DNA of 64,000 nt from Escallonia rubra. Taxonomy: Eukaryota; Streptophyta; Magnoliopsida; Escalloniales; Escalloniaceae. Numbering within the stretch: the first letter of the stretch is position 1; every line of letters starts with the position of its first letter. The notes under the pieces are model-generated. The model made no database searches. It was given only the letters and a program-made list of their open reading frames with translations, and had not been told where the DNA came from. Shown piece by piece: positions 14,191 to 64,000 of the stretch. The position numbers were made by a program, and so were the translations under genes. The stretch covers positions 112,018-176,017 of the forward strand of contig JAVXUO010002075.1 in assembly GCA_033065855.1 (NCBI GenBank), read 5' to 3'.

Positions 14191-14479
14191 GGGAGCTGAT
14201 CCGTTGAGAGCGTGGGCAAAATAGGAGAAGTTGCAAACGCGATCTGACCGTCCATCCCGAAAGATGGACGGTCCAGATCGCGTCTTTTTCAAAACCTGTC
14301 AGACGTCCGCCATACAGTATGGCGGACGGGTTTTTTTACCAAATTGCCCCTCCGCGCCTGTCCGCTACACAGTAGCGCGGAGGGCATTAATGTCCTGATG
14401 GGAGACAGCAAAAAGTCGTCCACCATACAGTATGGCGGACGGCCCCTAGTCTGACACCTGTCAGGGCCTGTCCCGTCAG
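14191..14479 (+). repeat. E1 left terminal inverted repeat
   Basis: Contains a subterminal hairpin (about 14229-14281, arms reading gcgatctg..ccgtccatc and gatggacgg..agatcgc). Short palindromes of the type GTCCGCCATAC/GTATGGCGGAC lie near 14310 and 14420, and a GTCCGCTACAC/GTAGCGCGGA form near 14360. Confidence 0.93.
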
Positions 14480-15201
14480 CCTGACACTGACCCCTGCCTG
14501 ACACGAGACAGCAAAAAAGGTATCCGCTATACAGTAGAGCGGAATAATTTCCTCACGCGCGCGCGGACAGGTGCTTCCCGTATACCCCCGAGGTTCCTGA
14601 TTCTCAGCTCTCTTTCCTGAATTCTCAGCTCATCCCGCAAAATTCTCAAGCTCTTCCCGCAAAATTTTCTTCTCCTTCGGATTCACCTGGCTTCCATTTC
14701 TACCTCCCCTAAAGCTTCTTCGAGTAAAACTTGCTTCAATCTTCTTCACTCAAGCAAGGTAAGTTTCTCATCTCAGATATTTTCTGGGTGGATTGACTGA
14801 TAAAGTATATTTTTTATTTTGGGCAAAAAAATATAAATTTCTGATGATGTTCTAGAAATTAATTTGTTAACTTTAAAGAAGTTTATTGTAGTTAATTTTG
14901 GATTTTTTTGAGGGGCGCTAACTTCGGCACATCTATCCTATTTAAATTCGAATTTTTTTAGATACGTTTGTTGTATTTTGGCATGATGAATTTGTCTAAC
15001 GCTCTTAGTAATTGTAATTTGTTATGTTCAATAAATCTATAATTAGCAAAATGGGAGACTTTTGAGATTATGTATATGGTATATTTGTCATCTTAAATTT
15101 GTCTATTTGTCACGATAATTTTAAGGTAATATTTTCAGTTGAAAATGTCATTTGATTGTTCAGCGTAGTCTATATTTCTACATATAGGGAGCTGTTTCAC
15201 A

Positions 15202-17499
15202 ATGTCTGATTTCGTGTCGAGCTCCAACACCCCCGTAGATGCTAGTGATCCGTATCTAGGACGAACCTTTCAAACATTGGAGGAAGCTGGAGAATGTTTC
15301 CGAGCGTATTCATTGAGGGTTGGATTTGGCATTAGAATAAAGACTTCAAGAACGAGCAACATAACGAGAAAGATATGCTCTCGTATGTACGAGTGCCATA
15401 GGGGCAGAAACCCAGTGCAAAATGAGACACGCGTAGGCAACGAGGACAGTGATGACGAAATAGGCTATTCGCGCAGAAGACGGGACTTCTTTGCGCGAAC
15501 GAATTGCCAGGTCAAGATGTTCGTAAGCTATAAACCCAAGCAAGATCATTGGCTTATTAGCAGCCTGGAACTGGCACACAATCACCCGTTAGTAACCCCT
15601 TCTAAGGTGAGTCAGATGCATCAACACAAGAAGATGGGAAAGGTCGCGAGGAGCCTCATTCACACAATGAGCGATGCGCGTCTAGGACCTACCGACATGA
15701 TTAATGTTCTTGCTGAACAGGCCGGGGGAATTCAGAATTTAAACTTTAACACGACAGACGTTCGCAACGCGGTCCGAACCCATAGACGAGCCGCGTATGA
15801 CCTCAATGATGCTCAAGCCACAATGAGCCTATTGAAGCGGATGCAGATGGAGGACCCGCAGTTTACCTTCGATTATAAACTTGACGACGAGCATCGAGTT
15901 AGCACAATTTTTTGGGTCGACGGTCGTTCCAGGCTTGCTTATAAGCATTTTGGGGATGTCGTGACTTTCGACACCACATACCGTACCAACAAGTACTCGA
16001 TGCCGTTTGCCCCTTTCACGGGGGTCAATCATCATTATCACTCCATCCTGTTCGGGTTCGCTTTGTTAAGGGACGAGAGCGAGAGTTCTTTTGAATGGTT
16101 GTTTAGTGTGTGGCTGGAAGCCATGAACTTCAAAGCACCCAACGTTATCATCACCGATCAAGATTTGGCAATGAAGAAGGCTATTGCCACCGTCTTCCCA
16201 GATACTCGACACAACTTGTGCACTTGGCACATAAGCAACAAATACCCCGAACGTTTGCATCACGTGTACGCAAAGTTTCCAGAATTTAAACAGGATTTTG
16301 ACACGTGCGTTAGCAAGTCGTTAACTATTGAGGAATTTGAGGAGAGGTGGGAAAAGCTTGTTCAGGATTACTCATTGCAAGACAACGGGTGGCTCCAGCA
16401 CTTGTACGAGCTCAAAGAGCAATGGATTGGCGTTTACACGAGGAGGCATTTTTCTGCGGGCATGAGAACGACGGGCAGGAGTGAATCTATGAATGCCACG
16501 TTCGATAGTTACGTGGGTACATCTACCAATTTGAAGAGTTTCGTCACATCCGCACAGAAAGCGGTTGCGTCGTTGTTCGTGAAAGAAAGGGCTGCAGACT
16601 TTGCAACCACGTACAAACAGAGGAGAAGGTTGCTTGAGACCCCGCTGGAGCTGAACGGTGCCAAAGTCTATACGAAGGAGATCTTCTTGCTATACCAAGT
16701 AGAGCTGCAGAAATCGGGACGGTACTGTATAAACAAGGTGGCGGAGAAGTCTACGCGTGAGTACAAGGTTTATTCGCTCGTGAATGACCTCGTTCCTGAG
16801 AAGCTGCGCAGAATGTATACGGTGAGCCACGACACATTGACGGACTCGGTGACATGTGTTTGCAAGAAGTTTGAGTTCCATGGCATCCTGTGTAGACACA
16901 TTCTGCGCTTTTTCACCCAGAAGAATATCAGGACAATCCCCGATAAATACGTCTTGCCACGGTGGACGAAAGGTGCAAACAGGTTGCACGGTACCATTGC
17001 TTTTCCGGAGCACCCGTATACTGACTTTGAAGAATCGGAGACGTTGCGGTATAATCATCTGGTGACGAGTTTCACCCGTTTGTCCGTAAAGGCTGCTGCT
17101 TCAATGGTCGGTTATAAACATCTCCTCGAGGTAGCTCAGCAGCAAGAGCCCATCATCGACCAGTTGGAAGCAGCCGCTGTCACCAGTGCGATTGACACCG
17201 AGCCTACGACGGGGGTATCAGAAGATGACGAGCCGGGGGAGGAAGACGACAATGATATTTGTTTGTTGGACCCAATTATATCGCAAACGAAAGGCCGCAA
17301 GAGATCTACGCGGATGAAAAGCTCTATTGAAACGGCAACTCAACCTAAAAAGCTGCGAAGGTGTGCATTGTGCAACAAAATGACCGACCACGACAAGCGG
17401 AACCATTACAAGGCACTGGGGATAAGTTCGGGGGGTTTGCAAGACGGGGAAGAAGGTGACGCCGAAGACGAGGACGAACAAGCTGCAGTGGACCTTTAA
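15202..17499 (+). CDS. E1 MULE transposase, FAR1-like (765 aa)
   Basis: Full-length open frame for a Mutator-superfamily transposase, expected to cut and join DNA at the TIRs in the nucleus. Order: FAR1-type DNA-binding region (about residues 18-135, starting DPYLGRTFQTLEEA), MULE catalytic domain (about 230-420; first acidic residue in VTFDTTYRTNKYS, second in IITDQDLAMK, then the CTWH motif), and SWIM zinc finger CVCKKFEFHGILCRH (about 551-565). An acidic stretch and a small Cys/His cluster, CALCNKMTDHDKRNH, close the protein. The start is the first ATG after a probable 5' UTR intron (donor 14759, acceptor 15187). No stop or frameshift interrupts it, so E1 may encode active enzyme. It is clearly homologous to the transposases of E2 and E3 but diverged. 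Confidence 0.92.
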   Translation: MSDFVSSSNTPVDASDPYLGRTFQTLEEAGECFRAYSLRVGFGIRIKTSRTSNITRKICSRMYECHRGRNPVQNETRVGNEDSDDEIGYSRRRRDFFARTNCQVKMFVSYKPKQDHWLISSLELAHNHPLVTPSKVSQMHQHKKMGKVARSLIHTMSDARLGPTDMINVLAEQAGGIQNLNFNTTDVRNAVRTHRRAAYDLNDAQATMSLLKRMQMEDPQFTFDYKLDDEHRVSTIFWVDGRSRLAYKHFGDVVTFDTTYRTNKYSMPFAPFTGVNHHYHSILFGFALLRDESESSFEWLFSVWLEAMNFKAPNVIITDQDLAMKKAIATVFPDTRHNLCTWHISNKYPERLHHVYAKFPEFKQDFDTCVSKSLTIEEFEERWEKLVQDYSLQDNGWLQHLYELKEQWIGVYTRRHFSAGMRTTGRSESMNATFDSYVGTSTNLKSFVTSAQKAVASLFVKERAADFATTYKQRRRLLETPLELNGAKVYTKEIFLLYQVELQKSGRYCINKVAEKSTREYKVYSLVNDLVPEKLRRMYTVSHDTLTDSVTCVCKKFEFHGILCRHILRFFTQKNIRTIPDKYVLPRWTKGANRLHGTIAFPEHPYTDFEESETLRYNHLVTSFTRLSVKAAASMVGYKHLLEVAQQQEPIIDQLEAAAVTSAIDTEPTTGVSEDDEPGEEDDNDICLLDPIISQTKGRKRSTRMKSSIETATQPKKLRRCALCNKMTDHDKRNHYKALGISSGGLQDGEEGDAEDEDEQAAVDL

Positions 17500-17646
17500 T
17501 TTTTTGTACAACGTTATGACATTTGTAATAATTTTCGAAGGGATAATTTTACCTCCGAATGCTGGAAATATTAAAAAATGGAGAGAATGAGAGGCCATCG
17601 AATTAAATGTATAGTCTCTTATTTTTAAATTTTTTTTTTAAGCCTC

Positions 17647-18051
17647 GTCCGCTATAAAATATAGCGGACGTCATCGCAGAAAAACTTTTGGTCTGCTTTC
17701 ACGTCCGCTATACCATAGAGCGGACCTCATGAGCAGTAAAACTTTTGGTCTTCATTCACGTCCGCGATACAATATAGCGGACGTCATCGAAGAAAAACTT
17801 TTGGTCTGCTTTCACGTCCGCTATACCATAGAGCGGACCTCATGAGCAGTAAAACTTTTGGTCTTCATTCACGTCCGCGATACAATATAGCGGACGTCAT
17901 CGAAGAAAAACTTTTGGGCTTCCACGTCCGCTATACCATATAGCGGACCTCATGAGCAGTAAAACTTTTGGTCTTCATTTACGTCCGCTATACAATATAG
18001 CGGACGTCATCGAAGAAAAACTTTTGGTGTCCGCCATATAAAGTGGCGGAT
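17647..18051. repeat. E1 palindrome array upstream of the B3 gene
   Basis: About seven tandem units of roughly 55-59 bp. Each carries a GTCCGCTATA..TATAGCGGAC-type palindrome followed by 'aaaacttttggt'. Two unit types alternate (GTCATCGAAGAA and CTCATGAGCAGT linkers). The last palindrome, a CCGCCATAT/AGTGGCGG form, lies 14 bases before a TATA box. The array could be the regulatory region of the B3 gene, a transposase-binding array, or both. Confidence 0.85.
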
Positions 18052-18064
18052 AACTCTATCCTAC

Positions 18065-18072
18065 TATATATA
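18065..18072 (+). promoter_or_regulatory. Candidate TATA box of the B3 gene
   Basis: A tatatata run in a 'ctactatatatatt' context lies about 145 bases before the B3 start codon and just after the palindrome array. Confidence 0.45.
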
Positions 18073-18214
18073 TTAATCATATCGCTATCAGTCCTATCTG
18101 AGGGCACCTCTCTCTGTCTCGAACATCTGCTGCCGCTACTCCGTCTCCGGCACCCACATCTCCGGTGGCCCAGAACTCCGGCGTTAATCCGTCCTCCCCT
18201 CAACGCCGACCTCG

Positions 18215-18683
18215 ATGGCTTCTGGATCGGAGACCACCAACGATTTTATTGGCAACTTGCACCTGGCAGGCAAACACTTTTTCAAAGTCATGATGCCGGG
18301 GTTTGAGAATGAACTTGTAGGCCATCCCTATTTCTCTGTATTGTCGTGTGTTAAAGGTTTGATGTTTTGGTTAAAAACTAACGTATTTTTTGTGTTGTGT
18401 TTGTTAGGACATACCGGAAGCCTTGACCAATCAATTTACAACAATTCATGACAGTGCAAGATTATATAGCCGCAAGGGGGCATGGCAGGTTGAAATCAAG
18501 CTGAAGCCCGGCCGACCCCAAAAAAAGCAATTTGCAGAGGGTTGGAACGTCTTCGTGCGCCAGCATGGCCTCGAACTCGGGGACTTTGTAGTGTTTGAAC
18601 ACCTTGGGTGGTGGGATTTTCAAGTTGTAATCTTTGATCGGAGCACTTGTGAAAAAATTTCTTTACCCCAATGTGAACCCTAA
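18215..18683 (+). CDS. B3-domain DNA-binding protein carried by E1 (two exons, 125 aa)
   Basis: Exon 1 is 18215-18316 and exon 2 is 18408-18683, joined in frame by a GT-AG intron. The product reads as one B3 domain, about residues 18-118. It has 'HFFKVMMPGFENEL' then 'DIPEALTNQF' at the front, 'AWQVEIKL' in the middle, and 'FAEGWNVFVRQHGLELGDF', 'VVFEHLG' and 'FQVVIFDRS' at the end, the usual order of REM-type B3 proteins. It has no second domain and is shorter than typical REM proteins. It is probably a sequence-specific nuclear DNA-binding protein. The target is unknown, but the GTCCGC palindromes of E1 are obvious candidates. It may be a captured host gene kept as element cargo. The frame is intact. 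Confidence 0.82.
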
Positions 18684-18751
18684 TTTATTATTAATAAAAT
18701 TATTTATGTTGTTGTTGAATCACCTCGAAATTTTTCCTCGCTTAATTGTGC

Positions 18752-18872
18752 TCAATTGTGTCGTTTGAGATTCCCTCGATATATTAAGATCGTTGATTGT
18801 GAATCGTACGTTAATTGTGTCGTTTGAGATTCCGTCGGTATATTGAGATCGTTGATTGTGAATCCTACGTTC
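18752..18872. repeat. Tandem duplication, about 61-bp units
   Basis: Two adjacent near-copies of a unit containing 'attgtgtcgtttgagattcc', 'atatt(a/g)agatcgttgattgtgaatc' and 'tacgtt', downstream of the B3 gene. Confidence 0.75.
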
Positions 18873-19022
18873 TTTATTGTTTATTGATATTGAGGTTGTT
18901 GATTCTGACGCCAAAACAAGTCTTCGGGGCGCCAATTTATTAAAACAGCATTATGCTACAATGCGACTAAAACAAGCCAATTTATTAAAACTGCAGAACG
19001 CTACAACTTCTAGCTCTACTAC

Positions 19023-19401
19023 ATAGCGGACATAAGGGCCTCCGCTTAGGCCGGGGTTCGGGAAGGTCGGAACTAAGTGTCTGGTTCGTGCCAACCATTT
19101 TCTGGTCCAAGTTGCAGACAACGATCTGCTGCACCACTATGAGGTAAGCTTCGTACTGTATTGTGCGGGCGTAGAACCACCACTGCGGAGCTGTCCGCTA
19201 TACTATATAGCGGACATCTCGTAGGGACAATCAAATGTCCGAGACTTTGCCTCTGCGGGGATGTCCGCTATACTATATAGCAGACCTAGGAGAGAAAAAT
19301 GGTTGTCTGCAACTTGGACCAGAAAATGGTTGGCACGGACCAGACACTTAGTTCCGACCTTCCCGAACCCCGGCCTAAGCGGAGGCCCTTATGTCCGCTA
19401 T
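19023..19401. repeat. 100-bp inverted repeat inside E1
   Basis: The arms 19023-19122 and 19302-19401 are inverted copies with one mismatch seen (ggttcgtg versus ggtccgtg). The 179-bp spacer holds two GTCCGCTATACTATATAG-type palindromes. The right arm ends 12 bases from the 3' end of the minus-strand 143-aa gene, so a transcript running past that stop could fold into a long hairpin. Confidence 0.9.
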
Positions 19402-19413
19402 AGAACTCGATCT

Positions 19414-19845
19414 TCAGGCATCTTCATCTGAAACTGGAGCATCGGAAACATTTCCTTCTTCGAAGCTCATGTTCCAGTATACTTGTGCTTCATTGTTGTT
19501 GCCATCTTCATGTGCATCACGTGCCATACGACGTAAGTTATGCCTACTTTGACGAACTCGCATTCTATTATTTTCCTCGCGTATTCGATGAAGTGCCCTT
19601 TCAAGCTCCATGTGCGTAATTCGAGGCATGTTGATTGCCTTTTGTCGAGGTATGGGTATATTCATGCTCCGTGAATCAGCTACTAGGACCTCGTGTTCAT
19701 TCATCCGATAAGACCATTCTGCACGTAATGTATTCACATAGCTTGATGAGTAACGCAAACTTGGACGCAAAGAATAGTAAAATTCATCTTCGCCCGCCCA
19801 GTAACGACCCATTGCTTCAAAAATATCTCGTGGAGTATATGACAT
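19414..19845 (-). CDS. E1 small accessory protein A (143 aa), family unknown
   Basis: Open frame from an ATG behind a TATA-like box (19912-19921, read gtatatataag on this strand). I recognise no family. The product is charged. Its central block (Y..LRAEWSYRMNE, then IPIPRQKAINMPR) leads to a probable amphipathic helix, ALHRIREENNRMRVRQ, and the tail is acidic (SDAPVSDEDA). It is clearly homologous to the 144-aa product encoded head-to-head at 20233-20667: shared pattern LR-EW-YR, P-P(R/Q), IR-ENNRM, and an acidic Ser-Asp tail. Two retained homologues argue that this is a real gene family of the element rather than chance ORFs. It could be DNA- or protein-binding. No function can be assigned. 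Confidence 0.65.
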   Translation of the reverse strand: MSYTPRDIFEAMGRYWAGEDEFYYSLRPSLRYSSSYVNTLRAEWSYRMNEHEVLVADSRSMNIPIPRQKAINMPRITHMELERALHRIREENNRMRVRQSRHNLRRMARDAHEDGNNNEAQVYWNMSFEEGNVSDAPVSDEDA

Positions 19846-20232
19846 TTCCAGAGTTGTTATGAAATTGGGAGTATATCACTCTATGCCCATTGCAATGAGC
19901 AATGCATGTACTTATATATACTTTGAAACGGGACCACTTTATGGAAGAGCTGCAGTTTCAACTTTATGAGATGTGACCCAACATTGGCAATAGACTAGAG
20001 ACTTGTCTTGTCACCAAAGAGAATTGTCTTGTCACCAAAGACTTGTCAACTTTATGACACGGGCATGCTGTTGTCTCCAACTATTGTCATCTTCAATGTC
20101 CAGCGACTTGTCTTGTCACAAGAGATAGACAGACTATTGTGTAGCTATCACACAAATATATTGTGTATGGGTATGTGGGCTTATTTATATATGTTAGCCA
20201 TGCTCATCGCTTTAGAACCAAAACAAAGTTAA
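19846..20232. promoter_or_regulatory. Bidirectional promoter region of the twin small genes
   Basis: A 387-bp divergent intergenic region with a TATA-like box for each gene: 19912-19921 for the minus gene and 20184-20192 (tttatatat) for the plus gene. A near-perfect direct repeat of 'ttgtcttgtcaccaaag' lies at about 20003 and 20024. Further 'acttgtc' copies follow to about 20120. Confidence 0.5.
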
Positions 20233-20667
20233 ATGGCAGGAGTTCCTGGGAGTTCTAGTCTGCGGGGACGTGAGACTGTGTGGTTGTTGTGTGAAAGGAA
20301 CGACGACTACAAAGAAGTGAAGTACACGGATCCCAGAGAGTATTATTGCGGTTTACGGAGAGAATGGGCATATCGAGTTAAGGAATCAGAAGCGCTACAC
20401 CAGGATCTCACCACGCTGAGTGCACCTGTGCCGCAACGTCGTTCACTTACTATGTCGCGGCGTAATGTTACGCAGTGTAAGAAAGCTGTGCGCCAAATTC
20501 GTATGGAGAATAACCGGATGTTGCTGCGTAGAAAACGATTTTATATGCTTCAACTTGCGGAAGAAATGGCCGAGGCTAGTGGGAGGCAGCTCACATCAAA
20601 CGAGAGAAACAATATTTTAACCAATGATCAGTACTTATCTGATGAGTATATGTCAAATGAAGAGTGA
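20233..20667 (+). CDS. E1 small accessory protein B (144 aa), family unknown
   Basis: Open frame with ATG about 40 bases downstream of a TATA-like box. The product is homologous to the 143-aa product on the opposite strand. Matching landmarks in order are YYCGLRREWAYRVKESEAL, APVPQRRSLTMSR, and a basic probable helix AVRQIRMENNRMLLRRKR, then an acidic end with LSDEYMSNEE. The N-termini differ. No catalytic motif, zinc ligand pattern, signal peptide or membrane segment is visible. The high Arg content of the helix and the acidic tail would suit a nuclear protein with nucleic-acid or protein contacts, but this is inference. The gene is followed by the 81-bp array. Confidence 0.65.
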   Translation: MAGVPGSSSLRGRETVWLLCERNDDYKEVKYTDPREYYCGLRREWAYRVKESEALHQDLTTLSAPVPQRRSLTMSRRNVTQCKKAVRQIRMENNRMLLRRKRFYMLQLAEEMAEASGRQLTSNERNNILTNDQYLSDEYMSNEE

Positions 20668-20785
20668 TATATATATCTCTTTCTACTGCATGCTAGGATT
20701 TCATTCCAACCGGCACTCATCCACATGTCATTCTAATTGGTGTATCCCGTCTTTTGAAGCATGTAAAATGTTGGGAATATATGTT

Positions 20786-21612
20786 TTTTTTGGGGCCCTA
20801 TTTACGTCCGCTAAACTATATCGCGGACAGCCAAGCAGAATGTACCCTCCCTCCCCAGCACTTAGTTTTTTTGGGGGGGCTATTTAGGTCCGCTAAACTA
20901 TATCGCGGACAGCCAAGCAGAATGTACCCTCCCTCCCCAGCACTTAGTTTTTTTTGGGGCCCTATTTACGTCCGCTAAACTATATCGCGGACAGCCAAGC
21001 AGAATGTACCCTCCCTCCCCAGCACTTAGTTTTTTTTGGGGCCCTATTTACGTCCGCTAAACTATATCGCGGACAGCCAAGCAGAATGTACCCTCCCTCC
21101 CCAGCACTTACTTTTTTTGTGCCCTATTCGCGTCCGCTAAACTATATCGCGGACAGCCAAGCAGAATGTACCCTCCCTCCCCAGCACTTAGTTTTTTTTG
21201 GGGCCCTATTTACGTCCGCTAAACTAAATCGCGGACAGCCAAGCAGAATGTACCCTCCCTCCCCAGCACTTAGTTTTTTTCGGCCCTATTCCGTCCGCTA
21301 AACTATATCGCGGACAGCCAAGCAGAATGTACCCTCCCTCCCCAGCACTTAGTTTTTTTTGGGGCCCTATTTACGTCCGCTAAACTATATCGCGGACAGC
21401 CAAGCAGAATGTACCCTCCCTCCCCAGCACTTAGTTTTTTTTGGGGCCCTATTTACGTCCGCTAAACTAAATCGCGGACAGCCAAGCAGAATGTACCCTC
21501 CCTCCCAGCACTTAGTTTTTTTTGGGGCCCTATTCACGTCCGCTAAACTATATCGCGGACAGCCAAGCAGAATGTACTTTCCACAACACTTAGTTTTTTT
21601 TCGGCCATATCT
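20786..21612. repeat. E1 tandem array, ten units of about 81 bp
   Basis: Ten units with starts of GTCCGCTAAAC near 20806, 20888, 20970, 21052, 21132, 21214, 21293, 21376, 21458 and 21539. Each holds a GTCCGCTAAACTATATCGCGGAC-like imperfect palindrome, 'agccaagcagaatgtaccctccctcccagcac' and a T-run plus 'ggggccctat'. Units are nearly identical; length varies in the T and G runs. It separates the 3' ends of protein B (+) and PMD-ULP1 (-). Open frames across it are by-products of the period. Confidence 0.93.
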
Positions 21613-21840
21613 AGTCTCCCCTGCTGAAAGCAAATCACACAGAACAAATAAAACACTCAGCTGAACAACACAACCATATCACTGAATCAAATCAATCGCA
21701 TCAAATCAATCGCATTCAACAACGATCACATCTCAGTCAACACAGATGAAATCGTCAATCGCATTCAAACGATAAGATTCAAGAAGTTTAAGGACAAATA
21801 GCCAAGTCAATATAGCGGACGTTATTATACGCAAACATTG
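21613..21840. other. AT-rich spacer between array and PMD-ULP1 3' end
   Basis: CA/AT-rich sequence with repeated 'aatcaatcgcat' phrases. It is probably the 3' untranslated region of the minus-strand gene. No coding signal is seen. Confidence 0.4.
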
Positions 21841-25039: not shown

Positions 25040-25443
25040 TTTTTGCAACTGAAATTATGGAAAAACCTTCTCAGTTTGGATTTTACATTTTGGATTTTGA
25101 TAATAAGAAGCGAAACTACGACGCTAGCACATGCATAATACATATAACGAGTTAGCACATGAATGATACGTACAATGTTAGCATATGTACTCATATGTAT
25201 AAATATATATACTATTACGGAATCGGATTTTGCAAACGCTTGCACAAGAACAAGAACATACATATATAAAACGCAATATTCATCTTAACCGAATATTACA
25301 GACAAAAAATCGTAGATTTTGTGAACTTACGTGATCGATTTAGGGTATATTGAACACCGGAATGTCGCCGATATGCTTGCCAACGCCGGTGGTAAAGACT
25401 GGATATTGCGTAGAAAGTGTATATTTTGTGAGTGGAGAAGAGT

Positions 25444-25491
25444 GGTGCCGTAGTTACTGCCGTAGTTACTGCCGTAGTTACTGCCGTTTGC
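25444..25491. repeat. Short tandem repeat, 15-bp unit
   Basis: Three to four copies of a gccgtagttactgcc-type unit in the 5' leader of the E1 PMD-ULP1 gene. Confidence 0.8.
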
Positions 25492-25942: not shown

Positions 25943-25946
<4 letters not shown>

Positions 25947-52378: not shown

Positions 52379-52389
52379 TTTGTCCTTTT

Positions 52390-54250: not shown

Positions 54251-54735
54251 CATTACAGAAATTTCCCGAATGACTTTTAGTTCAGGAAAGGGTGTGAGAC
54301 ACCCGAAAAGTTATTTTAAAGTTGTGAATTACATGTTTGTTGGGGCGATGACTGCCACAGGGTATTTTGCATAAGTTGGGGGTGTTTTGGTAACTTTCTC
54401 CCTTAAAATATTATGAGGAAATATTTGGTATATAATTGATGTAATACATTTAAAAAGTGGTTTAAAAGCGGTTTTGAGGTGTTGGGGGTGTAGAGGCCAT
54501 CGGGGGGGGGGGGGGATATTGCTCAATAACCACGTTGGCGCTACATTTCAGGGCACTAGCGTTATTAAGCGCTCGGAGTGGTGGGAAGCGAGGAATGATA
54601 TCAATACATTAAAATAATGATTTAATGAATATTGCTAATGCGTTGGTAAGCTAGGTTAACGATTCAGTTACAGTTTTGGAATGTAAATATTATGGACGTT
54701 AAGTTGGTTTACGATTATATTTTGTTCTTACAGAT

Positions 54736-57733
54736 ATGGATTTCAACCCTGGACCTCATGATACATCAATCTTATACGATGACGATGACCACGTCGCGAG
54801 GCACGTATTTGACGGTGTCGATAGGGGTGTTTTGGAAACAATTCAAAGCACAAGTCACCTCGACGAGTGGGTACTGAACGAGGAACAAATACAACTATTA
54901 CACCGTCAAAATTTGACTGTGTTCACCGATTGCGGGAATTGGTCTCGGCACGACGATTGCCTTATATCCGCTCTAGTTGAACGATGGAGGGGCGAGACGA
55001 ACTCATTTCACTTTCGGTTTGGTGAAATGACTATTACATTAGAGGACGTCGGATTTATACTTGGAATCCCATGTCACGGCAGACCCATTACTTCGAGTAA
55101 AACGTCTGCATCCATAGCGACGATGGCTAGGCAGTATTTTCCTGGGATTCCGAGGGACGCTCTTACAACCAACGGCATAAAACTTAAATGGCTGAGAGAG
55201 CAGTACGGCGAGCTACCGGATGAATACACTCCTCATGATTTGGTGACGTATACGAAGGCATTCCTTTTGTATATTACTGGATCTATACTACTTCCGACGC
55301 CAAAAAAAAACACGGTGCATCCGAAGTATATGGTGTTCTTGGAGGATCTTGAGGAGGTATACTCGTATTCGTGGGGTTCAGCTGTCCTTGCGCACCTATA
55401 TCGAGCATTGCACAAAGCTACGAGAAAGGGTGCCAAGTCCATTGCCGCCTGCATCACTCTGTTACAGGTTTGACGTTTTTGTCCAATATTCTTGGTTGAC
55501 GTGTCAATATATTCGTGATTAATTACTAATTCCATATAATGTTTGCGTTCACAGGTTTGGTCTTACGAGAGGCTACCCACGGGTCGTCCACAGCCCGTAG
55601 CTGATTCCGATGAGACGTGGCCTAGGGTGTGGGCCTGGGGGCCTACGACCAAACGGATGAGACGGGTAGACCCTCACCACCATCTAATGTTCTATCGGGG
55701 GGAACTAGATATGATGGATGCATCCCAGGTGACGTGGCAGCCATATGGGAAGGTGATGCATCGGTTGGATGAGTTGTGTTGGCAACTTCCGGTGTCGTAC
55801 GTGCTGGCAGGTTTGGTTCGGGTGCCACTTATTCACTTCGAGTTACGTGAGTTTCCGATGCCCAATCGAGCTATGAAACAAGCTGGCTGTCTACAAGGGA
55901 TACCAAAACCCGCTGTAGACATGCGGCGATACAGGAGCGGTCGAGGTCCGAATTTTGAGGTGCCTGATGCCTTGAATTTGCTGAGCGACGAGGTGCAACA
56001 GTGGAATACTTGGCAAGAAACGTATGGTAGCCTTGTATCGCTCAAGGACGACGGCACCAGTACTGAGGAGTACCTGCAGTGGTTTCTCAAGGTGACGCGC
56101 ACGAGGGTGACTCGCCCTTCCCAAGTGAGGACCAAATCGTATGCGCCACGTGAGGTCTATGACCAGTTCTGGGCATTGAGCATTGTAAGTCAACCTAGTG
56201 TTGTTTCAATATTTATTTGCGCACCTTCTCGACCATGCCTGAAATGATGACGGTGATTTTTCTATGCATGTTTTTTAGGTTGACTAGGGCACTGAGGTGT
56301 TTAAGCAGCTCGAGCGGTTTGACTGGTATGTCGCGCATGCGCCTGACAGTCTCAAGAGCTCCATTGAGAGGTACAAGACTGATCTTCACAACTTTAGTGT
56401 TGCGTACCGGGGTTACCAAGGGGAGCCGTCTAGTCGCTTGCCTCCTGACGCGTACGGCTCTCAGCCCCAGAGTCAGGGCCTGGGGGAGCCGTCTAGTCGC
56501 TTGCCTCCTGACGCGTACGACTATGTGCCCCAGAGTGTGGTGTGGGAGCCGTCTCGTCAAAGGACCCCTGACACGTACGACTATGTGCCCCAGAATGTGG
56601 TGTGGGAGCCGTCTAGTCAAAGAACCCCTGACGCGTACGACTCTGTGCCCCAAAATGCGGTGTGGGAGCTGTCTAGACGCTTGCCTCCTGACGCGCCTTT
56701 GCCCCAGAGGGAATTCTGGGAGCCGTCTAGACTGTGGCCTCCTGACACGTACGACTCTCAGCGCCAGAGTCAGGTGACCCAAGTAGGAATCCAGGCCTCG
56801 CGCCCAAGCAACCGGTCGGATAAAGGACAAGCGACAAAGCCATTGAGGCCGAACAAGCGGGATTGGATCGACCGGCACTACTTCGGGCCTGAGCCTGTCG
56901 ATTCAACAGACTTTCCTCTTGGAACATGTCTAGGTCACGCGGATGTGAGAATGTTGGCACCGGAGACAGATATTTCAAATTTCGTCATGAACGCTTATAT
57001 AGATCTGCTCCGGATTAGAGAGCTACGTTATAACCAGTGCGAAGATTTGAAGCTTAACATGCATCCCACTTACTTTGTCACATTAATGGTGACCAGCATG
57101 AGGGAGTTAACAGAATGGAGGAGGCGAGGGGCAGGCAAGGGTAAGTGGAAACCATCTGGAAACGTATTAGGCCTGTTGAACGCAGACTACCAATGTCACG
57201 CTGCCGATGCGAACCTTGTCATGATACCTTGCCATCATGAAAACCACTGGTTCCTATTAGTTCTCCATCCAGCGAACAGACAGGTCAACATATACGATAG
57301 CCTAAGGGAGGACTCTCCTGGGCGGTCGCTGGCACAGATGTATAGCGAGTACATCACTGTAGTGGTTAGTTTTTATCGGTTGACCTTGGCTCATAGCATA
57401 TTCTTATTGTAACATAGGCTTGATGATCTTTTTAATTGTTGGATGCAGACTACTATCTTCTCGCTAGCGTGCCGAGATTATTCGGGGGAATCCATCACCA
57501 GGAATTCGACGGTAGAGCCTTGGACGGTCGTGATGATACAGGACCGACCAAAGCAATATAACAGTCACGATTGCGGGATTTACGTCCTCAAGTACATGGA
57601 CTACATTGCTCGCTCGGAGGTGCTCAGATATACGTCGTGGACTAGGAAGGCTGCCTTGACGTTTAGGTATAGGATAGCCTGGGAGCTGAAAAAGAATGAA
57701 GCTAGATGGCTTCATTACCATTATCCTAACTAG
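54736..57733 (+). CDS. E3 PMD-ULP1 fusion gene (one TAG at the start of exon 3)
   Basis: Exons 54736-55467, 55555-56184, 56279-57364 and 57449-57733, with a 5' UTR intron at 54646-54733. The domain layout is as in E2: plant mobile domain in exons 1-2, then a linker in exon 3 with about six copies of a ~21-residue PSSRLPPDAY-type repeat (three in E2). Protease residues are His in NHWFLLVL, Asp in IYDSL, Gln in RPKQYN and Cys in HDCGIYVL. Codon 3 of exon 3 is TAG (56285-56287), where E2 has CAG. Its AG could itself act as an acceptor nine bases downstream of the usual one, which would remove the stop in frame. If that does not occur the gene is broken. No other stop was seen. Confidence 0.82.
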
Positions 57734-58480
57734 CGTGACTAAGGTGCAATGAGCAAAGAACCCCTTAAAAAATGTACATGTATTTTCGCAAGCTATGAAT
57801 TTGGCGATAAAGTGTGCGCGAATATGCCTTTTATAGGAAAACCAAATATATTATTTGTCTCGATTTTCGCCGAAATTCATAGAAATGGCCTATTAGCGTG
57901 CCTAAGGGGCAATGAGCGAAAAAAAAGTGACAAAAAAAATTACAAGATTTTTCGGAAGTTATGAATTGGGCCCTAAAGTGTGCCCGAATAGGCCCTTCAT
58001 AGGAAAACCCAAAAAATAACGTGTCTCGTTTTTCGCCGAAATTCTTACGAATGGGCTAACTAGCGTGCCTGAGGTGCAATGAGCGAAAAAAAAGTGACAA
58101 AAAAAATTACAAGATTTTTCGGAAGCTATGAATTGGGCCCTAAAGTGTGCCCGAATAGGCCCTTCATAGGAAAACCCAAAAAATAACGTGTCTCGTTTTT
58201 CGCCGAAATTCTTACGAATGGGCTAACTAGCGTGCCTGAGGTGCAATGAGCGAAAAAAAAGTGACAAAAAAAATTACAAGATTTTTCGGAAGCTATGAAT
58301 TGGGCCCTAAAGTGTGCCCGAATAGGCCCTTCATAGGAAAACCCAAAAAACAACGTGTCTCATTTTTCGCCTAAATTCGTACGAATGGGCTAACTAGCGT
58401 GCCTGAGGTGCAATGAGCAAAAAAAAAGTGACAAAAAAAATTACTACAAGATTTTTCGGAAGCAATGAATTGAGTGATAA
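57725..58480. repeat. E3 tandem array between converging genes, about 167-bp units
   Basis: About five units, with the marker CTAACTAGCGTGC or variants near 57727, 57890, 58056, 58222 and 58388. The first contains the PMD-ULP1 stop codon, as in E2. Units are homologous to the E2 array, with 'gaggtgcaatg' where E2 has 'catgtgcaatg'. Confidence 0.92.
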
Positions 58481-58611
58481 ATTGTGCACGAATAGGCCCT
58501 TCCAAAAATATCAATAATCCACAAACCAAATCACAAATTAAAGATTCAACAAACCAAATCACAAATTTAAACATTATAAAAGTTATTCGTTATACAACTG
58601 AAACATTAACC

Positions 58612-60894
58612 CTAACACTCTTCATCATCATCGTCCTCCTCGACCATACTGCCAGGTGCGAGACCTAACACTTTATAATGGTTTCTCTTGTCATGATCAG
58701 TCATCTTATTACACAACGCACACTTTCGCAATTTTTTTTGACCCGTTGCTTTTTCAATCGGATTCTTCATGCGTATTTCTCGTTTTCGCCCTTTTGTTTG
58801 AGAAATAATTGGATCAAAAATGTCGTCCTCCTCACCTTGCATGCTAGTGCCGTCAATGACTGGCTGTTTGGCTCGATTGAATCTACCGGCTGGAGTCGTC
58901 CGAGTAGTCGGAGTGTCCCGTCTTTCTGGATCAGCCATCCTAAACTGTGCATGCTTAGCCTTATCCCGTGCGGCTGCTTCAACTTGATACCTGTACCCAT
59001 CAAATGTTGACGCTGCATCCAATGATAAACCGTGCATGATGTTACAAAGGTGATTATATCGCAGCGGCTCAGATTGCTTGGGCACGTAAGGAATGTGACC
59101 GTGGACTCTATTGGCTTCCTTCGTCCACCGTTCCAAGATATACTGTGGAGGGATTTCACGAGCATTCTTGGAGCTCAAAACCCTCAACGCGTGTCGACAA
59201 AGTATACCTTTATGCTCAAACAATTGACAGTTGCAATTTACCAACCCGGTGTCCATACATTTAGCCACGGTAAAATGTCTTCTGTTCCTCGGAGTCGACG
59301 AAGAGCACGGATTGGCGAAATTCGTCACGTTTGTCAAAGCATAAACCTTGAGATCTCTGGTGGAATACTCGTGCAACTTTGTCATGCCATATTGATTCGA
59401 CTTTAGTAGTTCATCTTGAAACTGTCTAAACATTTCCTTGGTATAGACTTGAGCCGCATGAGCCTCCAAAGGTGAAAAGAGTAGTATGGCTCTTTCTCTG
59501 TAAACTGTAGCCGCGTCGGCTTCTCTCTCACGGTACAATTGCCTATCAACGGCTTTCTGCATCTCCAGTACGAACTCCACTATACTTGAAGACTGGCTTA
59601 CGTACCCATCAAAGAATGAATTCATAGCTTCGCTTCTCGAGGTCGTAGTCATTCCGGCTGCAAAAAACTTCTTGGTGTAGGCACCGACCCACTGTGTCTT
59701 GATCGCATACAACGATTGTAACCAGTCATGATTGTGCAAATAGTAGTCATCCATTAACGTGGCCCACCTCTCCTCGAACACGTCTACCGTCAACGATTTC
59801 TTCACACATGTATTAAAGTCAGTCTTGAATTCCGGATGGTTTGCATATACATTGTGAAGCCGTTCGGGATATTTGTTGCTTATGTGCCACGTGCACAGGC
59901 CATGGTGAGTATCTGGAAGGACCTTAGCGATTGCATTTTTCATTGCCAGATCTTGGTCGGTGATGATGGTCTTTGGAGGAATATGATACATTGCTTGAAG
60001 CCACGTTTCAAATAACCACGTAAATGACTCCTCCGTCTCATCCCTAAGCAGGGCAAAGCCAAACGAGATTGACTGATAGTGGTGGTTCACCCCGGTGAAC
60101 GGAGCAAAAGGCATAGAGTACTTATTGGTGCGGTATGTGGTGTCAAACGTCACAACATCCCCAAAATTTTGGTAAGCAGCTCTAGAACGGGGGTCCGCCC
60201 AAAATATAGTACTAATGCGGTTCTCATCATCGAGTTGGAGACTGTAGAAAAATCCAGAATTCTCACTCTGAAGGCACCTGAAGAGATCAAGTGTAGCTTG
60301 AGAATCACTCCTACCGAAAGACTCTCTCTTCTGAGCACGAAGTTCATTTCGAAGGTCTACTTCGTTGAAACTCAACTTGTCAATCCCCCCAGCCTGGCTT
60401 GAGAAAACCCCCATCATCTTAGAAGGTGGAATTTTAGCCCCGGCCATTGTAAAAATCAGTTGTCTGTGTGCCGCGCTAATTTCTCGGTGTTGATGAATTT
60501 GACCAATCTTACTGGGGGTCATCAACTGATGATTATGACTCAACTCCACTCCCGTCACAACCCAATGGTTTTCTTTTTTCCGGTGTACTGCATACACATG
60601 GGCCTTGCAGCCGGTACCCGGAAATGTGTCGCGTTTTCTTTGTCTTGTTGTCCCTTCGTCACTGATCTGAACGACCGGGGGTACATGCGGTGCTCCTCTA
60701 TGACACTCAAATAGTCTTGCACAAATTTGATCTGTATTCACCCGTTTTCTAGTCGTCTTAGTTCTAATACCGAAACCCATCGTTTTCGAATATGCTCTGT
60801 AGTATGCTTCGACTTCGTCCAGTGTTTGAAAAACTTGATCCAAGTAAGGTGGATCAGAACCTTCACAAAAATTGCTTCCTCCAGTTGCATCCAT
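58612..60894 (-). CDS. E3 MULE transposase, FAR1-like (760 aa), intact
   Basis: Full open frame. FAR1-type N-terminus begins at DPPYLDQVFQTLDEVEAYYRA and ends near residue 130. The MULE catalytic domain follows: first acidic residue in VTFDTTYRTNKYS, second in IITDQDLAMK, then CTWHISNKYPERL. The SWIM finger is CNCQLFEHKGILCRH and the C-terminal cluster CALCNKMTDHDKRNH. Relative to E2 it lacks six residues just before KQSEPLRYNH, without harming the frame. A 'tttcag' acceptor shortly before the ATG suggests a 5' UTR intron. The gene runs inward from the right arm and converges on PMD-ULP1. It is the best candidate source of transposase for both E3 and E2. Confidence 0.93.
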   Translation of the reverse strand: MDATGGSNFCEGSDPPYLDQVFQTLDEVEAYYRAYSKTMGFGIRTKTTRKRVNTDQICARLFECHRGAPHVPPVVQISDEGTTRQRKRDTFPGTGCKAHVYAVHRKKENHWVVTGVELSHNHQLMTPSKIGQIHQHREISAAHRQLIFTMAGAKIPPSKMMGVFSSQAGGIDKLSFNEVDLRNELRAQKRESFGRSDSQATLDLFRCLQSENSGFFYSLQLDDENRISTIFWADPRSRAAYQNFGDVVTFDTTYRTNKYSMPFAPFTGVNHHYQSISFGFALLRDETEESFTWLFETWLQAMYHIPPKTIITDQDLAMKNAIAKVLPDTHHGLCTWHISNKYPERLHNVYANHPEFKTDFNTCVKKSLTVDVFEERWATLMDDYYLHNHDWLQSLYAIKTQWVGAYTKKFFAAGMTTTSRSEAMNSFFDGYVSQSSSIVEFVLEMQKAVDRQLYREREADAATVYRERAILLFSPLEAHAAQVYTKEMFRQFQDELLKSNQYGMTKLHEYSTRDLKVYALTNVTNFANPCSSSTPRNRRHFTVAKCMDTGLVNCNCQLFEHKGILCRHALRVLSSKNAREIPPQYILERWTKEANRVHGHIPYVPKQSEPLRYNHLCNIMHGLSLDAASTFDGYRYQVEAAARDKAKHAQFRMADPERRDTPTTRTTPAGRFNRAKQPVIDGTSMQGEEDDIFDPIISQTKGRKREIRMKNPIEKATGQKKLRKCALCNKMTDHDKRNHYKVLGLAPGSMVEEDDDDEEC

Positions 60895-61009
60895 ATTTAT
60901 ACTGAAATCTAAAAAATAAAAATTATATCATTCTCAACAAGTCATAGAATTAAATAAAAGAAGAATAAAAATTATTTGCAGTGTAATTGTTGGAAAATTT
61001 GTATAATGT

Positions 61010-63230
61010 AAAATTACCAAAATAGCCCCCGATGAGCGGCAAATTACCGAAATGCCCCCGGGGGTTCATTATCACCCTAACGCCCCAAATCAGCTTCGAA
61101 ACAACCTTTCAGGTGCTTTGCTTACATTTCTGGACGAAGCAGTCATTTGAAAAACTGAAAGGGGCAAAATAACGAAAATACCCCTCTCGGGAATGCGAAT
61201 TACCAAAATGCCCCCTGGCATCAGAAAAGCTGAATAGTTTTTTCGAACGACTTTTAAGCTTCCTGAATTCACAACTTTAAAATAACTTTTCGGGTGTCTC
61301 ACACCCTTTCCTGAACTAAAAGTCATTCGGGAAATTCGTGTAATGTAAAATTAGGAAAATAGCCCCCGATGAGCGGCAAATTACCGAAATGGCCCGGGGT
61401 TCATTAGGACCCCAACGCCCCGCGAATCGGCTTCAAATCAGCCTTTCAGGTGCTTTGCTTACATTTACGGACTGAAAAGTCGTTTGAAAAACTTGACACC
61501 GTAAAATTACCAAAATACCCCTCTCGGGGCGGCGAACTACCAAAATGCCCCCTGGCATCAGGAAAAATCTCAAAAGTGCTTTAAGATGCTATTTTAAGGT
61601 TCCTGAACTGATTCGTGATGTAAAAAGTATTTTACGGAAGTTTCGCCCAAAAATCCCGAACCGGTGTCCGGATCGAGCGCGTAAAAGCCCGTTCGGCAAA
61701 AAAATTGCTAACGGCTTCGGAATGGCCCGAATTCCTGGGGAATGGAACTTCCCAACATCCTAGGGTTCTCAAAAAAGTTTCGCGCGAAATCGCGCTAGCT
61801 TGATATTTTAAATTACACTGCGAAGTTACAAGGTTGCGCGTATCAGTTAACCCCTTTCCAGTCTTTGGAAAAATCTGAAATTTTTACCTGATATGGATCT
61901 TTTAGAAATAACTAGGGTCTCTTTTTTGTACTTTGGCAAAATCTAGCTCTAGCTATTTTTTATAAATTCGTGAAAAACTGTCTAATTAAGTTTTCACCTT
62001 TAGCGACCCCAACGCCCCGCGAATCGGCTTCAAATCAGCCTTTCAGGTGCTTTGCTTACATTTCTGGACTGAAAAGTCGTTTGAAAAACTTGACACCGTA
62101 AAATTACCAAAATACCCCTCTCGGGGCGGCGAATTACCAAAATGCCCCCGGCATCAGGAAAAATCTCAAAAGTGCTTTAAGATGCTATTTTAAGGTTCCT
62201 GAATTGATTCTTGATCTAAAAAGTATTTTAGGGATTTTTCGCCCAAAAATCCCGAACCGGTGTCCGGATCGAGCGCGTAAAAGCCCGTTCGGCAAAAAAA
62301 TTGCTAACGGCTTCGGAATGGCCCGAATTCCTGGGGAATGGAACTTCCCAACATCCTAGGGTTCTCAAAAAAGTTTCGCGCGAAATCGCGCTAGCTTGAT
62401 ATTTTAAATTACACTGCGAAGTTACAAGGTTGCGCGTATCAGTTAACCCCTTTCCAGTCTTTGGAAAAATCTGAAATTTTTACCTGATACGTATCTTTTA
62501 GAAATAACCAGGGTCTTTTTTTGCACTTTGGCAAAATCTAGCTCTAGCTATTTTTTATAAATTCGTGAAAAACTGTCTAATTAAGTTTTCACCTTTAGCG
62601 ACCCCAACGCCCCGCGAATCGGCTTCAAATCAGCCTTTCAGGTGCTTTGCTTACATTTCTGGACTGAAAAGTCGTTTGAAAAACTTGACACCGTAAAATT
62701 ACCAAAATACCCCTCTCGGGGCGGCGAATTACCAAAATGCCCCTGGCATCAGGAAAAATCTCAAAAGTGCTTTAAGATGCTATTTTAAGCTTCCTGAGTT
62801 CATTCTTGATCTAAAAAGTATTTTAGGGATTTTTCGCCCAAAAATCCCGAACCGGTGTCCGGATCGAGCGCTTAAAAGCCCGTTCGGCAAAAAAATTGCT
62901 AACGGCTTCGGAATGGCCCGAATTCCTGGGGAATGGAACTTCCCAGCATCCTAGGGTTCTCAAAAAAGTTTCGCGCGAAATCGCGCTAGCTTGATATTTT
63001 AAATTACACTGCGAAGTTACAAGGTTGCGCGTATCAGTTAACCCTTTTCCAGTCTTTGGAAAAATCTGAAATTTTTACCTGATACAGATCTTTTAAAAAT
63101 AACTAGGGTCTCATTTTTGTACTTTGACAAAATCTAGTTCTAGCTATTTGTTATAAATCCGTAAACAATCCTAATTTTGACGCCCTAAAAAATCGCTGTG
63201 TTAGAATCTGTCTAATGTAATACCCCGATT
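61010..63230. repeat. E3 right-arm tandem units (about 596 bp)
   Basis: Marker ends (CATCCT) at 61761, 62357 and 62952, spaced 596 and 595, plus diverged partial units at 61010-61400. All three full units contain TTTCGCGCGAAA (61778-61789, 62374-62385, 62969-62980). Inverted relative to 52990-54250, with one more unit. Confidence 0.92.
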
Positions 63231-63837
63231 TGTAAAAACGTAATTTTGACGCCTTAAACATGAATTTTAGACTATGGTAAGAACAATTTAAGCGTAACAT
63301 AATTTAAAAAAGCAATTGGTAAGAACAATTTGAAATTAACATTGAATTATAAGAAAATTCAAAATACTTACTTGTTTTGGCTTGAAAAAAATGACGAAAA
63401 ATCCACCGATCTTCTAGCGTAAATTTTTTTTGTTTGTATTGTTGTGGAGATTATGTGGGTGAGGTATGTAGAATGAGGAGATGGGAATAAATGGTTCGGG
63501 GCGGGTGATTTTATAGAGAGAAGGAAAAAAAAGACTATCGTAGGAAACCCGTGAGTGAGCAGTAGGGTGGGGGGAGGGGGAAATGACACGTGGGGGTGGG
63601 GGGAGGGGGGAAATGACGCGTGGGGGGAAGGGGTCATCACGGGGGGAAAGAGGGCATCACGGGTGGGGGAATTACAGTGGGGGTGGGGGAAAGGGAATGG
63701 GGTGGGGCCTTGTCTTTCTCTTCGGGGGAAAAAGGACATGCCCGAAGGGTGGGGGCCACGGGGGGGGGGGGGAAGGAAGGTCGCTGGAGGAGGGGTGTGG
63801 GGGGGGGGGAGGAGGGGTGGGGGGAAAAAAGGACAAA
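63231..63837. other. E3 right arm: AT-rich then G-rich segment
   Basis: Inverted counterpart of 52390-52990, with long G-runs from about 63565. No gene. Gly-rich and Pro-rich frames here are low-complexity by-products. Confidence 0.6.
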
Positions 63838-64000
63838 AGCAATCGCAACAAAGAGTTGCGATTGGCATTTTTATCCAAGAATATTCCAATCGCAACTCTT
63901 TGTTGCGATTGGATTTTTTAATCATTCCAATCGCAAGAAAGAGTTGCGATTGGCTTTTTGTCCAATAATTCCAATCGCAACTCTTCTTGCGATTGGGTTT
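63838..64000. repeat. E3 right-arm hairpin cluster (cut by window end)
   Basis: Four hairpins of the CAATCGCAAC / GTTGCGATTG type near 63840, 63886, 63927 and 63971, mirroring the left cluster. The terminal sequence is beyond the window. Confidence 0.9.

Follow-up and report, generated by a model that had tools for sequence, protein, structure and literature searches.

The large elements in the window, i.e., the 64,000-nucleotide stretch of Escallonia rubra DNA analysed here, belong to two families, E1-type and E2/E3-type, of two-gene FAR1 (Jittery-like) MULEs lying in TA microsatellites. One gene encodes the transposase, and the other runs towards it and encodes a PMD fused to a ULP1 (Peptidase_C48) protease domain. 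By analogy with VANC/KIU of VANDAL MULEs, we infer, at about even chances, that this PMD-ULP1 protein is a transposon-encoded anti-silencing factor.

A sequence-only reading of the window had described a convergent FAR1-type transposase and PMD-ULP1 gene in E1, E2 and E3, and Pfam searches found both genes where they had been placed (Table 1). The PMD and C48 matches are 1.8e-18 (one E1 piece) and 7e-7 in E1, 1.1e-44 and 8.1e-18 in E2, and 5.1e-44 and 6.9e-8 in E3. Gene orientation agrees with the description of E1 as the mirror image of E2 and E3, and the genes do meet at tandem arrays, with units of 57 and 82 bp in E1 and of 167 bp in E2 and E3. The E1 and E3 transposases have a FAR1-type N-terminal domain, a MULE DDE domain and a SWIM zinc finger, all above the Pfam cut-off, and the broken E2 transposase retains FAR1 and MULE matches in its open 310-aa piece. 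By domain content alone, all three elements are classed as Jittery/FAR1-group MULEs.

Table 1. Features of elements E1, E2 and E3 (window positions)
Feature	Position	Strand	Remarks
Element E1	14191..25895		both termini included; (TA)n on flanks
E1 TIRs	14191-14479 and 25607-25895		outer 289 bases match at 287/289
E1 transposase, open reading frame	15202..17499	+	FAR1 DNA-binding domain, MULE DDE domain, SWIM zinc finger
E1 tandem array, 57-bp units	17646..18028		23-bp palindrome GTCCGC-N11-GCGGAC, seven exact matches
E1 tandem array, 82-bp units	20783..21577		ten exact copies, same palindrome class as the 57-bp array (GTCCGC-N11-GCGGAC)
E1 PMD-ULP1 gene	21841..25039	-	Pfam matches to PMD and C48
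Element E2	28446..46754		about 18.3 kb; left tip missing about ten terminal bases present at right tip
E2 arms	29795-32331 and 39863-45396		repeats of about 600 bp
E2 PMD-ULP1 gene	32858-35636	+	
E2 PMD-ULP1 exon 1	32858..33589	+	first half of PMD
E2 PMD-ULP1 exon 2	33675..34307	+	second half of PMD; one TAG in window copy
E2 PMD-ULP1 exon 3	34401..35294	+	linker with peptide repeats, then start of ULP1 domain including catalytic H and D
E2 PMD-ULP1 exon 4	35379..35636	+	end of ULP1 domain including catalytic Q and C; stop codon
E2 tandem array, 167-bp units	35770..36830		between 3' ends of PMD-ULP1 and transposase
E2 transposase, broken	37012..39342	-	five stops in aligned copy
Element E3	52129..64000		left terminus adjoins (TA)n; right end lost at contig end (window 64000)
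E3 PMD-ULP1 gene	54736..57733	+	four exons; broken by one TAG near exon 3 start
E3 tandem array, 167-bp units	57767..58502		homologous to E2 array
E3 transposase, open reading frame	58612..60894	-	FAR1, MULE, SWIM

TIRs, as expected of MULEs, are nearly perfect in E1 (11.7 kb), E2 has an exact 36-base block close to both tips, followed by its long repeat arms, and the right end of E3 falls outside the contig. All 13 distinct termini found by sequence have tips bearing alternating A and T (judged by eye), and at the right end of E2 and the left end of E3 a few other bases separate this stretch from the long (TA)n tract. Because the termini lie inside (TA)n, a target site duplication of 8-11 bp is indistinguishable from the tract.

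In the copy at locus L012, PF10536 matches above the cut-off across the PMD, exon 1 covering profile positions 15-180 and exon 2 positions 181-346. DUF1985 scored 26.9 bits in L012 and 26.1 bits in E3, i.e., below its cut-off of 35.1 and far below PMD, leaving a weak similarity (5.2e-6) under the Pfam threshold. AlphaFold models were of very low confidence (mean pLDDT 35.9 for PMD exon 1 and 35.0 for the E2 ULP1 stretch). In intact copies, exon 3 is free of stops from the end of the PMD via the linker into ULP1, so PMD and ULP1 are read as one gene; an arrangement of two adjacent genes was ruled out on the sequence of these copies. The positions of predicted introns 1 and 2 in E1 match those in E2.

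The claim that the fusion is a fixed partner of the transposase held within the one host genome searched (566 Mb), to which all pairing counts refer. Among the matches listed, the E1 and E3 transposases each have 57 more places in this genome, at identities of 98-100% and 96-99%, respectively. ULP1 was convergent with the transposase in 20/20 E2/E3-type loci fetched, and PMD (searched in place of ULP1) was convergent in 47 of the 58 E1-type places listed, a count that includes the window's own E1; by chance, a listed PMD would be expected within 15 kb of about 0.008 of transposases. The 11 misses comprise two places with a PMD match in another arrangement only and nine without a listed PMD; several of those left unfetched sit near contig ends. 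One of the nine (L029), when fetched, had the first PMD exon, a portion of the second and no ULP1, and its transposase is open despite this loss (one of five E1-type genes read). Starting instead from PMD, a transposase was present at 14 of 15 places, hand-picked in list order and searched for PMD and transposase, not ULP1. None of 24 control PMD places with frames of 596, 685 or 651 aa had a listed transposase within 12 kb. An earlier count used 88 PMD places outside that class (convergent listed transposase at nine, tandem at one, divergent at one and none at 77); it is weak because the family lists contain about 200 of over 3,000 transposase candidates, and the PMD-started count supersedes it. 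A majority of copies lacking one of the two genes was thus not seen among the copies checked in this genome.

Neutral evolution with no intact copies was not seen either. For E2/E3-type PMD-ULP1, dN/dS is 0.44 (0.34-0.60) across four intact copies and 0.54 (0.46-0.67) across 19 copies, and for the transposase it is 0.49 (0.37-0.71) across 22 copies. By part, it is 0.45 for PMD vs 0.62 for ULP1 (ULP1 interval 0.43-0.90; the intervals overlap), and the linker is free of visible constraint at 0.98 (0.57-1.93). Four of the 17 full-length fetched copies are intact and 13 are broken. These analyses exclude two copies cut by contig ends (L010 and L018) and one with a deletion spanning exons 2 and 3 (L028); the intact count becomes 4/18 if L028 is added and 4/20 if E2 and E3 are added too. 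All three window copies are broken, E1 by a frame shift and three in-frame stops and E2 by one TAG, as is E3. The residues H, D, Q and C are kept in 22/22 E2/E3-type sequences when aligned to SENP2 (2.7e-9); we take H, D and C to be the catalytic His-Asp-Cys of C48/ULP1 proteases and Q to be the oxyanion Gln. Selection appears, from these comparisons, to have preserved PMD-ULP1. The earlier proposal that the protease has a job gains from the dN/dS below 1 and the kept residues, but in all six E1-type pairs comparable for both proteins, ULP1 is less constrained (0.47-0.77) than the transposase (0.20-0.39).

Between the two families, identity is 53% for the transposase and 34-44% for the partner protein, and synonymous distance is saturated; the fusion and its intron positions are common to both. 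To judge from these sequences, the transposase/PMD-ULP1 pair predates the divergence of the families, and it stayed together though element parts seem to have been recombined. Between E1 and L032, identity is 93% for transposase, 82% for PMD and 58% for ULP1. Linker peptide repeats occur as 60-bp arrays in 16/20 E2/E3-type loci. Palindrome arrays are present in E1-type elements, and E1 has 28 sites (at most one mismatch) vs 0.06 expected; the matches came with a spacer of 11 bases, and a scan with a 10-base spacer gave none. The E2/E3 palindrome is absent from the 167-bp array and lies only near the element ends, so a candidate target array is seen just in E1-type elements. A search for a short motif common to the arm and the array of E2 returned a single 9-mer. 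C-to-T/G-to-A change is raised at CG and CHG sites, a pattern which suggests past cytosine methylation.

If PMD-ULP1 is an anti-silencing factor, its PMD would direct it to the element or the element's chromatin, perhaps through family-specific repeats (e.g., the E1 palindrome arrays), where host silencing proteins would lose SUMO or a related modifier to the protease, allowing the transposase gene to be expressed. Traits resembling VANC are the faster divergence of the partner, the linker peptide repeats, the weak DUF1985 similarity and the E1-type palindrome arrays, though the E1 array could equally be a transposase site. We counted for this role the pairing, the common fusion and introns, dN/dS below 1, the kept H-D-Q-C and the CG/CHG mutation pattern. 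We counted against it the sub-cut-off DUF1985, the doubt on SUMO action voiced in the consulted part of PMC6117577, the lack of an E2/E3 target array, the unconstrained linker, the weakly constrained ULP1 (to 0.77), the ULP1 loss in L029 and the broken copies. A bolder version is possible but rather improbable: PMD-ULP1 would be the first known anti-silencing system of FAR1/Jittery-type MULEs, a sequence-guided SUMO(-like) protease that recognises its own family-specific palindrome arrays, removes the silencing mark there, is built from the kind of domain the host uses for silencing (PMD) and lies behind a young burst of elements in this genome.

Pairing with the transposase and dN/dS below 1 would fit equally well if PMD-ULP1 were a transposition cofactor, de-modifying or processing the transposase or a repair factor, i.e., a second gene needed for transposition like mudrB of MuDR, which is apparently required for integration (PMC6446971, introduction). 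Transposase-ULP1 distances among copies are correlated, as such a role would favour (Spearman 0.59 with E2, 0.50 without), but transposase-PMD distances are nearly uncorrelated (0.30 and 0.09, respectively), and divergence is faster in the partner than in the transposase that it would assist; we regard this reading as tenable but unlikely. More doubtful still is a decoy or dominant-negative of the host PMD silencing proteins MAIN and MAIL1, with the protease part secondary. These proteins silence transposons, passages of PMC5418596 and PMC8616336 suggest captured PMDs in TE anti-silencing, and dN/dS in E2/E3-type copies is lower for PMD than for ULP1 (with overlapping intervals), yet the ULP1 part is itself below 1 and its catalytic residues are kept in all 22 sequences. 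Passive host-derived cargo carried by transposition is very improbable: gene-fragment capture is frequent in MULEs (PMC2528002, in part) and most full-length copies are broken, but this reading is already disfavoured because dN/dS is below 1, introns are common and catalytic residues are kept, and it also sits poorly with the intact copies and with the same fusion in two families at saturated synonymous distance.

Parts of this arrangement were known: a ULP sequence following Jittery-like transposases, PMD in antisense orientation within MULEs, and anti-silencing VANC/KIU in VANDALs. In the open literature, consulted mostly as listings and passages, no PMD-ULP1 fusion partnering a FAR1-type MULE was found. 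Here both ULP1 and PMD occur in one gene, which has stayed beside the transposase in both families of a large, young population with intact copies, which bears on the recurrence of ULP1 in plant DNA transposons and on the role of TE-borne PMD (questions left by the portions seen of PMC5418596 and PMC13317346).

With Kaonashi/KIU-VANC, our elements share a ULP1 (C48) gene opposite the transposase, lower conservation of the accessory protein than of the transposase, peptide repeats, and motif arrays in non-coding DNA (excerpts of PMC5735166, PMC13317346 and PMC2528002). VANC has DUF1985, variable regions bearing repeats, and motif arrays (PMC5735166, in excerpt), and KIU is described as a VANC carrying ULP1 (passages of the review PMC13317346); the domain here is instead PMD. 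The Kaonashi type invoked by the sequence-only reading stands as an analogy only: KI elements are described as non-TIR MULEs with mudrA (PMC2528002 and PMC13317346, in part), unlike the FAR1-type transposase here and the 289-bp TIRs in E1, and that reading as a whole is partly supported. Some VANDAL-group elements do possess TIRs (PMC6446971, in passages), and half the members have "PMD and/or DUF" (its Table 1). For Kaonashi ULP-like proteases, action on SUMO is considered unlikely, as they are distant from other ULPs and their expression is low or undetectable (excerpts of the review PMC6117577).

PMD lies antisense to the transposase in E1-E3, as in PMD MULEs of MUDR, MUDRAVI2 and other groups; Table 1 of PMC6446971 gives this arrangement for most MUDR-group plant MULEs and lists the plant Jittery group with FAR1, one ORF and no PMD. 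The text of that paper contains no word starting with ULP, and "mobile domain" as a term is absent from PMC2528002. The PMD-C proteins of grasses and Amborella, with a suggested anti-silencing role, are likewise carried by MULEs, with PMD fused to the transposase (PMC5418596, in part); in E1-E3 it belongs to a gene distinct from the transposase and is joined to a protease. AutoMuTAnT also has a Jittery-like transposase, and AutoMuTAnT/MuTAnT and SaTar MULEs likewise insert into TA microsatellites (passages of PMC4486113 and PMC5907723), but AutoMuTAnT measures 4.9 kb and has just one ORF, unlike the larger E1 and E2 with their second gene. In Jittery-like MULEs of grapevine and melon, a ULP coding sequence lies downstream of the transposase (PMC2528002, in part, and the melon 2007 study as cited there). 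They share with E1-E3 a Jittery/FAR1-type transposase and a ULP sequence, which PMC2528002 describes, in the part consulted, as independently transduplicated in either orientation; in our elements, ULP1 forms the C-terminus of a PMD fusion with four or five exons, which is convergent with the transposase at the loci read and has dN/dS below 1.

The sequence-only reading of this window (positions 112018-176017 of its contig, in a 566-Mb genome) held that three large MULEs, E1, E2 and E3, each join a FAR1-MULE transposase gene to a convergent PMD-ULP1 gene. We confirm this observation and extend it to the element population of the host genome, a plant's by its gene content. All three elements have this same set of two genes, and E1 is, as had been proposed, inverted relative to E2 and E3. 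The transposases of E1 and E3 have an open frame with FAR1, MULE and SWIM domains all above the Pfam cut-off; that of E2 is broken. The second gene is a fusion. Its plant mobile domain (PMD) is divided between exon 1 and exon 2, which in L012, an intact copy, cover profile positions 15-180 and 181-346, respectively. Exon 3 holds a repeat-bearing linker and then the start of the ULP1 (C48) protease domain, which ends in exon 4. Tandem arrays lie where both genes meet, with units of 57 and 82 bp in E1 and 167 bp in E2 and E3. Outside the genes, 310-313-bp arrays occur in 8/20 fetched loci of the E2/E3-type family.

Coordinates of the features described (window positions unless a locus is named)
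Feature	Position	Remark
E1	14191-25895	E1-type MULE
E1 palindrome sites	14305-25781	TIRs, both arrays, a few other places
E1-E2 gap	~26900-27500	resembles a Copia-type retrotransposon at its RNase H end (judged by eye)
E2	28446-46754	E2/E3-type MULE
E2 left arm	29795-32331	~2.5 kb; ~600-bp repeats, inverted orientation
E2 right arm	39863-45396	~5.5 kb; ~600-bp repeats, inverted orientation
E3	52129-64000	E2/E3-type MULE; right end cut off at contig end
L029 loss	3119-4085 of L029	ULP1 lost, PMD exon 2 lost in part; array of palindrome-bearing 77-bp units in their place
Tandem PMD genes	G000:C922:1278226-1296817	four genes, each encoding the entire domain in a single open frame (643-689 aa); may be MAIN/MAIL-like PMD genes of the host

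We tested the pairing in three samples, all from the host genome, and did not find most copies lacking one gene. At least 57 further E2/E3-type transposase places (96-99% protein identity) were present, of which 20 loci were fetched; ULP1 was convergent to the transposase in 20/20 and PMD visible in 19, the remaining locus being truncated at a contig end. The E1-type family likewise has at least 57 further transposase places (98-100% protein identity), and the high identity of so many places suggests a young burst. Of 58 E1-type places (the window's own E1 counted), scored for PMD and not ULP1, 47 had a listed PMD exon convergent within 15 kb, two had one in another arrangement and nine had none among the PMD exons listed; the chance expectation is ~0.008 per transposase. 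Both samples were picked by best transposase match and are therefore biased to young, intact elements. The third sample started from PMD: among 15 places whose PMD frame has 468 aa, near-identical copies of the one subfamily in which the pair was first noticed (at L032), 14 had a transposase on the expected strand where a convergent one was looked for. As a control, 24 PMD places whose frames are 596, 685 or 651 aa long, presumed to be Gypsy-type, gave 0/24 with a transposase within 12 kb among those listed. Five E1-type genes (E1 and loci L029-L032) were read, and four of them have ULP1; L029 has lost it, and its transposase is open.

Synonymous and nonsynonymous change, which the sequence-only reading had proposed to compare, argues against neutral evolution of PMD-ULP1. 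Pooled dN/dS was 0.54 (0.46-0.67, codon bootstrap) over 19 copies, i.e., 17 full-length fetched E2/E3-type genes plus E2 and E3; by part it was 0.45 (0.32-0.60) for PMD, 0.98 (0.57-1.93) for the linker and 0.62 (0.43-0.90) for ULP1. The E2/E3-type transposase gave 0.49 (0.37-0.71; 22 copies). Four of the 17 fetched genes are intact (L012, L014, L019, L025), and these gave 0.44 (0.34-0.60) for PMD-ULP1 and 0.50 (0.32-1.03) for the transposase. E1-type pairs, without intervals, ranged over 0.09-0.39 for transposase, 0.22-0.72 for PMD and 0.47-0.77 for ULP1 (0.20, 0.33 and 0.58 for E1 vs L032). In all such values the pairs are non-independent, and dead copies shift them toward 1. All 22/22 E2/E3-type sequences keep the catalytic residues H, D, Q and C, which align with those of SENP2 (2.7e-9).

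E1 and E3 are only 53% identical in transposase, 44% in PMD and 34% in ULP1, with synonymous sites saturated, and despite this distance both families have the same gene order, orientation, fusion and intron places. Intron 1 lies between LLQ and VWSYE and intron 2 directly 5' of the V opening exon 3 (both in E1, L032 and E2), while intron 3 lies inside the ULP1 domain, 7 residues past an MY pair (L032 and E2). E1-type genes have an extra intron close to the 5' end. All exons of L032 are open; GT and AG border three of its introns, the 5' intron being checked at its acceptor only. Judged by these sequence features, PMD-ULP1 of both families is of one origin.

Synonymous distance varies between the parts of an element. 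Mean synonymous distance among E2/E3-type copies was 0.032 for transposase (22 copies), 0.089 for PMD and 0.072 for ULP1 (19 copies); in the same order it was 0.163, 0.319 and 0.547 for E1 vs L032, and 0.129, 0.122 and 0.363 for E1 vs L031. Copy choice by transposase identity enlarges this contrast, and misalignment possibly inflates the ULP1 values. Spearman correlations of fourfold-site distances (20 E2/E3-type copies; value without E2 in brackets) were 0.30 (0.09) for transposase-PMD, 0.59 (0.50) for transposase-ULP1 and 0.32 (0.17) for PMD-ULP1. The uneven, nearly uncorrelated transposase and PMD distances suggest exchange between copies, chiefly of the PMD half.

Transitions private to one copy numbered 40 at 264 CG, 16 at 188 CHG, 37 at 671 CHH and 36 at 1415 A/T sites in PMD-ULP1, and 17 at 186, 11 at 142, 22 at 599 and 10 at 1250 in the transposase. 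CAG to TAG accounts for 5/10 nonsense codons listed (6/10 if the E3 codon began as CAG). This pattern, a possible trace of silencing, fits deamination of methylated cytosine.

The 23-bp palindrome GTCCGC-N11-GCGGAC has 28 copies in E1 at up to one mismatch (0.06 expected by chance) and, at that stringency, none elsewhere in the window. Exact copies number 20, 10, 7 and 12 in L029-L032, many in arrays with units of 56-78 bp or related, the unit length varying between elements. It may be a binding site, of the transposase or of its partner. It also occurs in 3/20 E2/E3-type loci (L015, three copies; L016, one; L017, three), and L015 also has an E1-type terminus. A different palindrome, AAYCGYAAC..GTTRCGRTT, has 10 copies in E2 and 4 in E3, confined to near the element ends. 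By eye, an AT-repeat stretch adjoins 13/13 distinct termini found (window 14191, 25895, 46754 and 52129; L011-L015, L019, L029), and both families have a similar tip, GGG..GC(T/C)GAT(C/T)C. These termini indicate TA-microsatellite targeting; TA-targeted MULEs of the Jittery-like kind have been described (PMC4486113, PMC5907723).

Published work describes ULP downstream of Jittery-like transposases (PMC2528002), MUDR-group transposases with PMD in antisense and VANDALs with "PMD and/or DUF" (PMC6446971), fusions of PMD to a transposase, for which an anti-silencing role was suggested (PMC5418596), and proteases fused to genic PMD (PMC7156037). Among the matches listed, leaving aside the 2006, 2007 and 2022 studies that these papers cite, we found no report of a PMD-ULP1 fusion partnering a FAR1-type MULE.

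An anti-silencing function of PMD-ULP1, close to ideas in print, is plausible by analogy. We infer each step from PMD binding onward: the PMD part would bind the target, and the ULP1 part would remove SUMO. The nearest working model is VANC. This TE-encoded protein has DUF1985 along with variable regions that bear repeats; it is described as binding short motifs, many of them arranged as tandem arrays within its own family, and causing methylation loss, the transposase of the same element being far more conserved (PMC5735166). For KIU, from ULP1-carrying VANC genes, a like mode of action is reported (review PMC13317346); its action on SUMO has been judged unlikely (review PMC6117577), which speaks against a SUMO target. 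PMD-ULP1 resembles VANC/KIU in its opposite orientation, ULP1 domain, faster divergence and peptide repeats, and E1-type elements have motif arrays as in VANC systems. However, VANC is a DUF1985 protein, whereas the match of PMD-ULP1 to DUF1985 falls under threshold (5.2e-6), so we say that PMD-ULP1 "works like" a VANC/KIU and not that it "is a" VANC/KIU.
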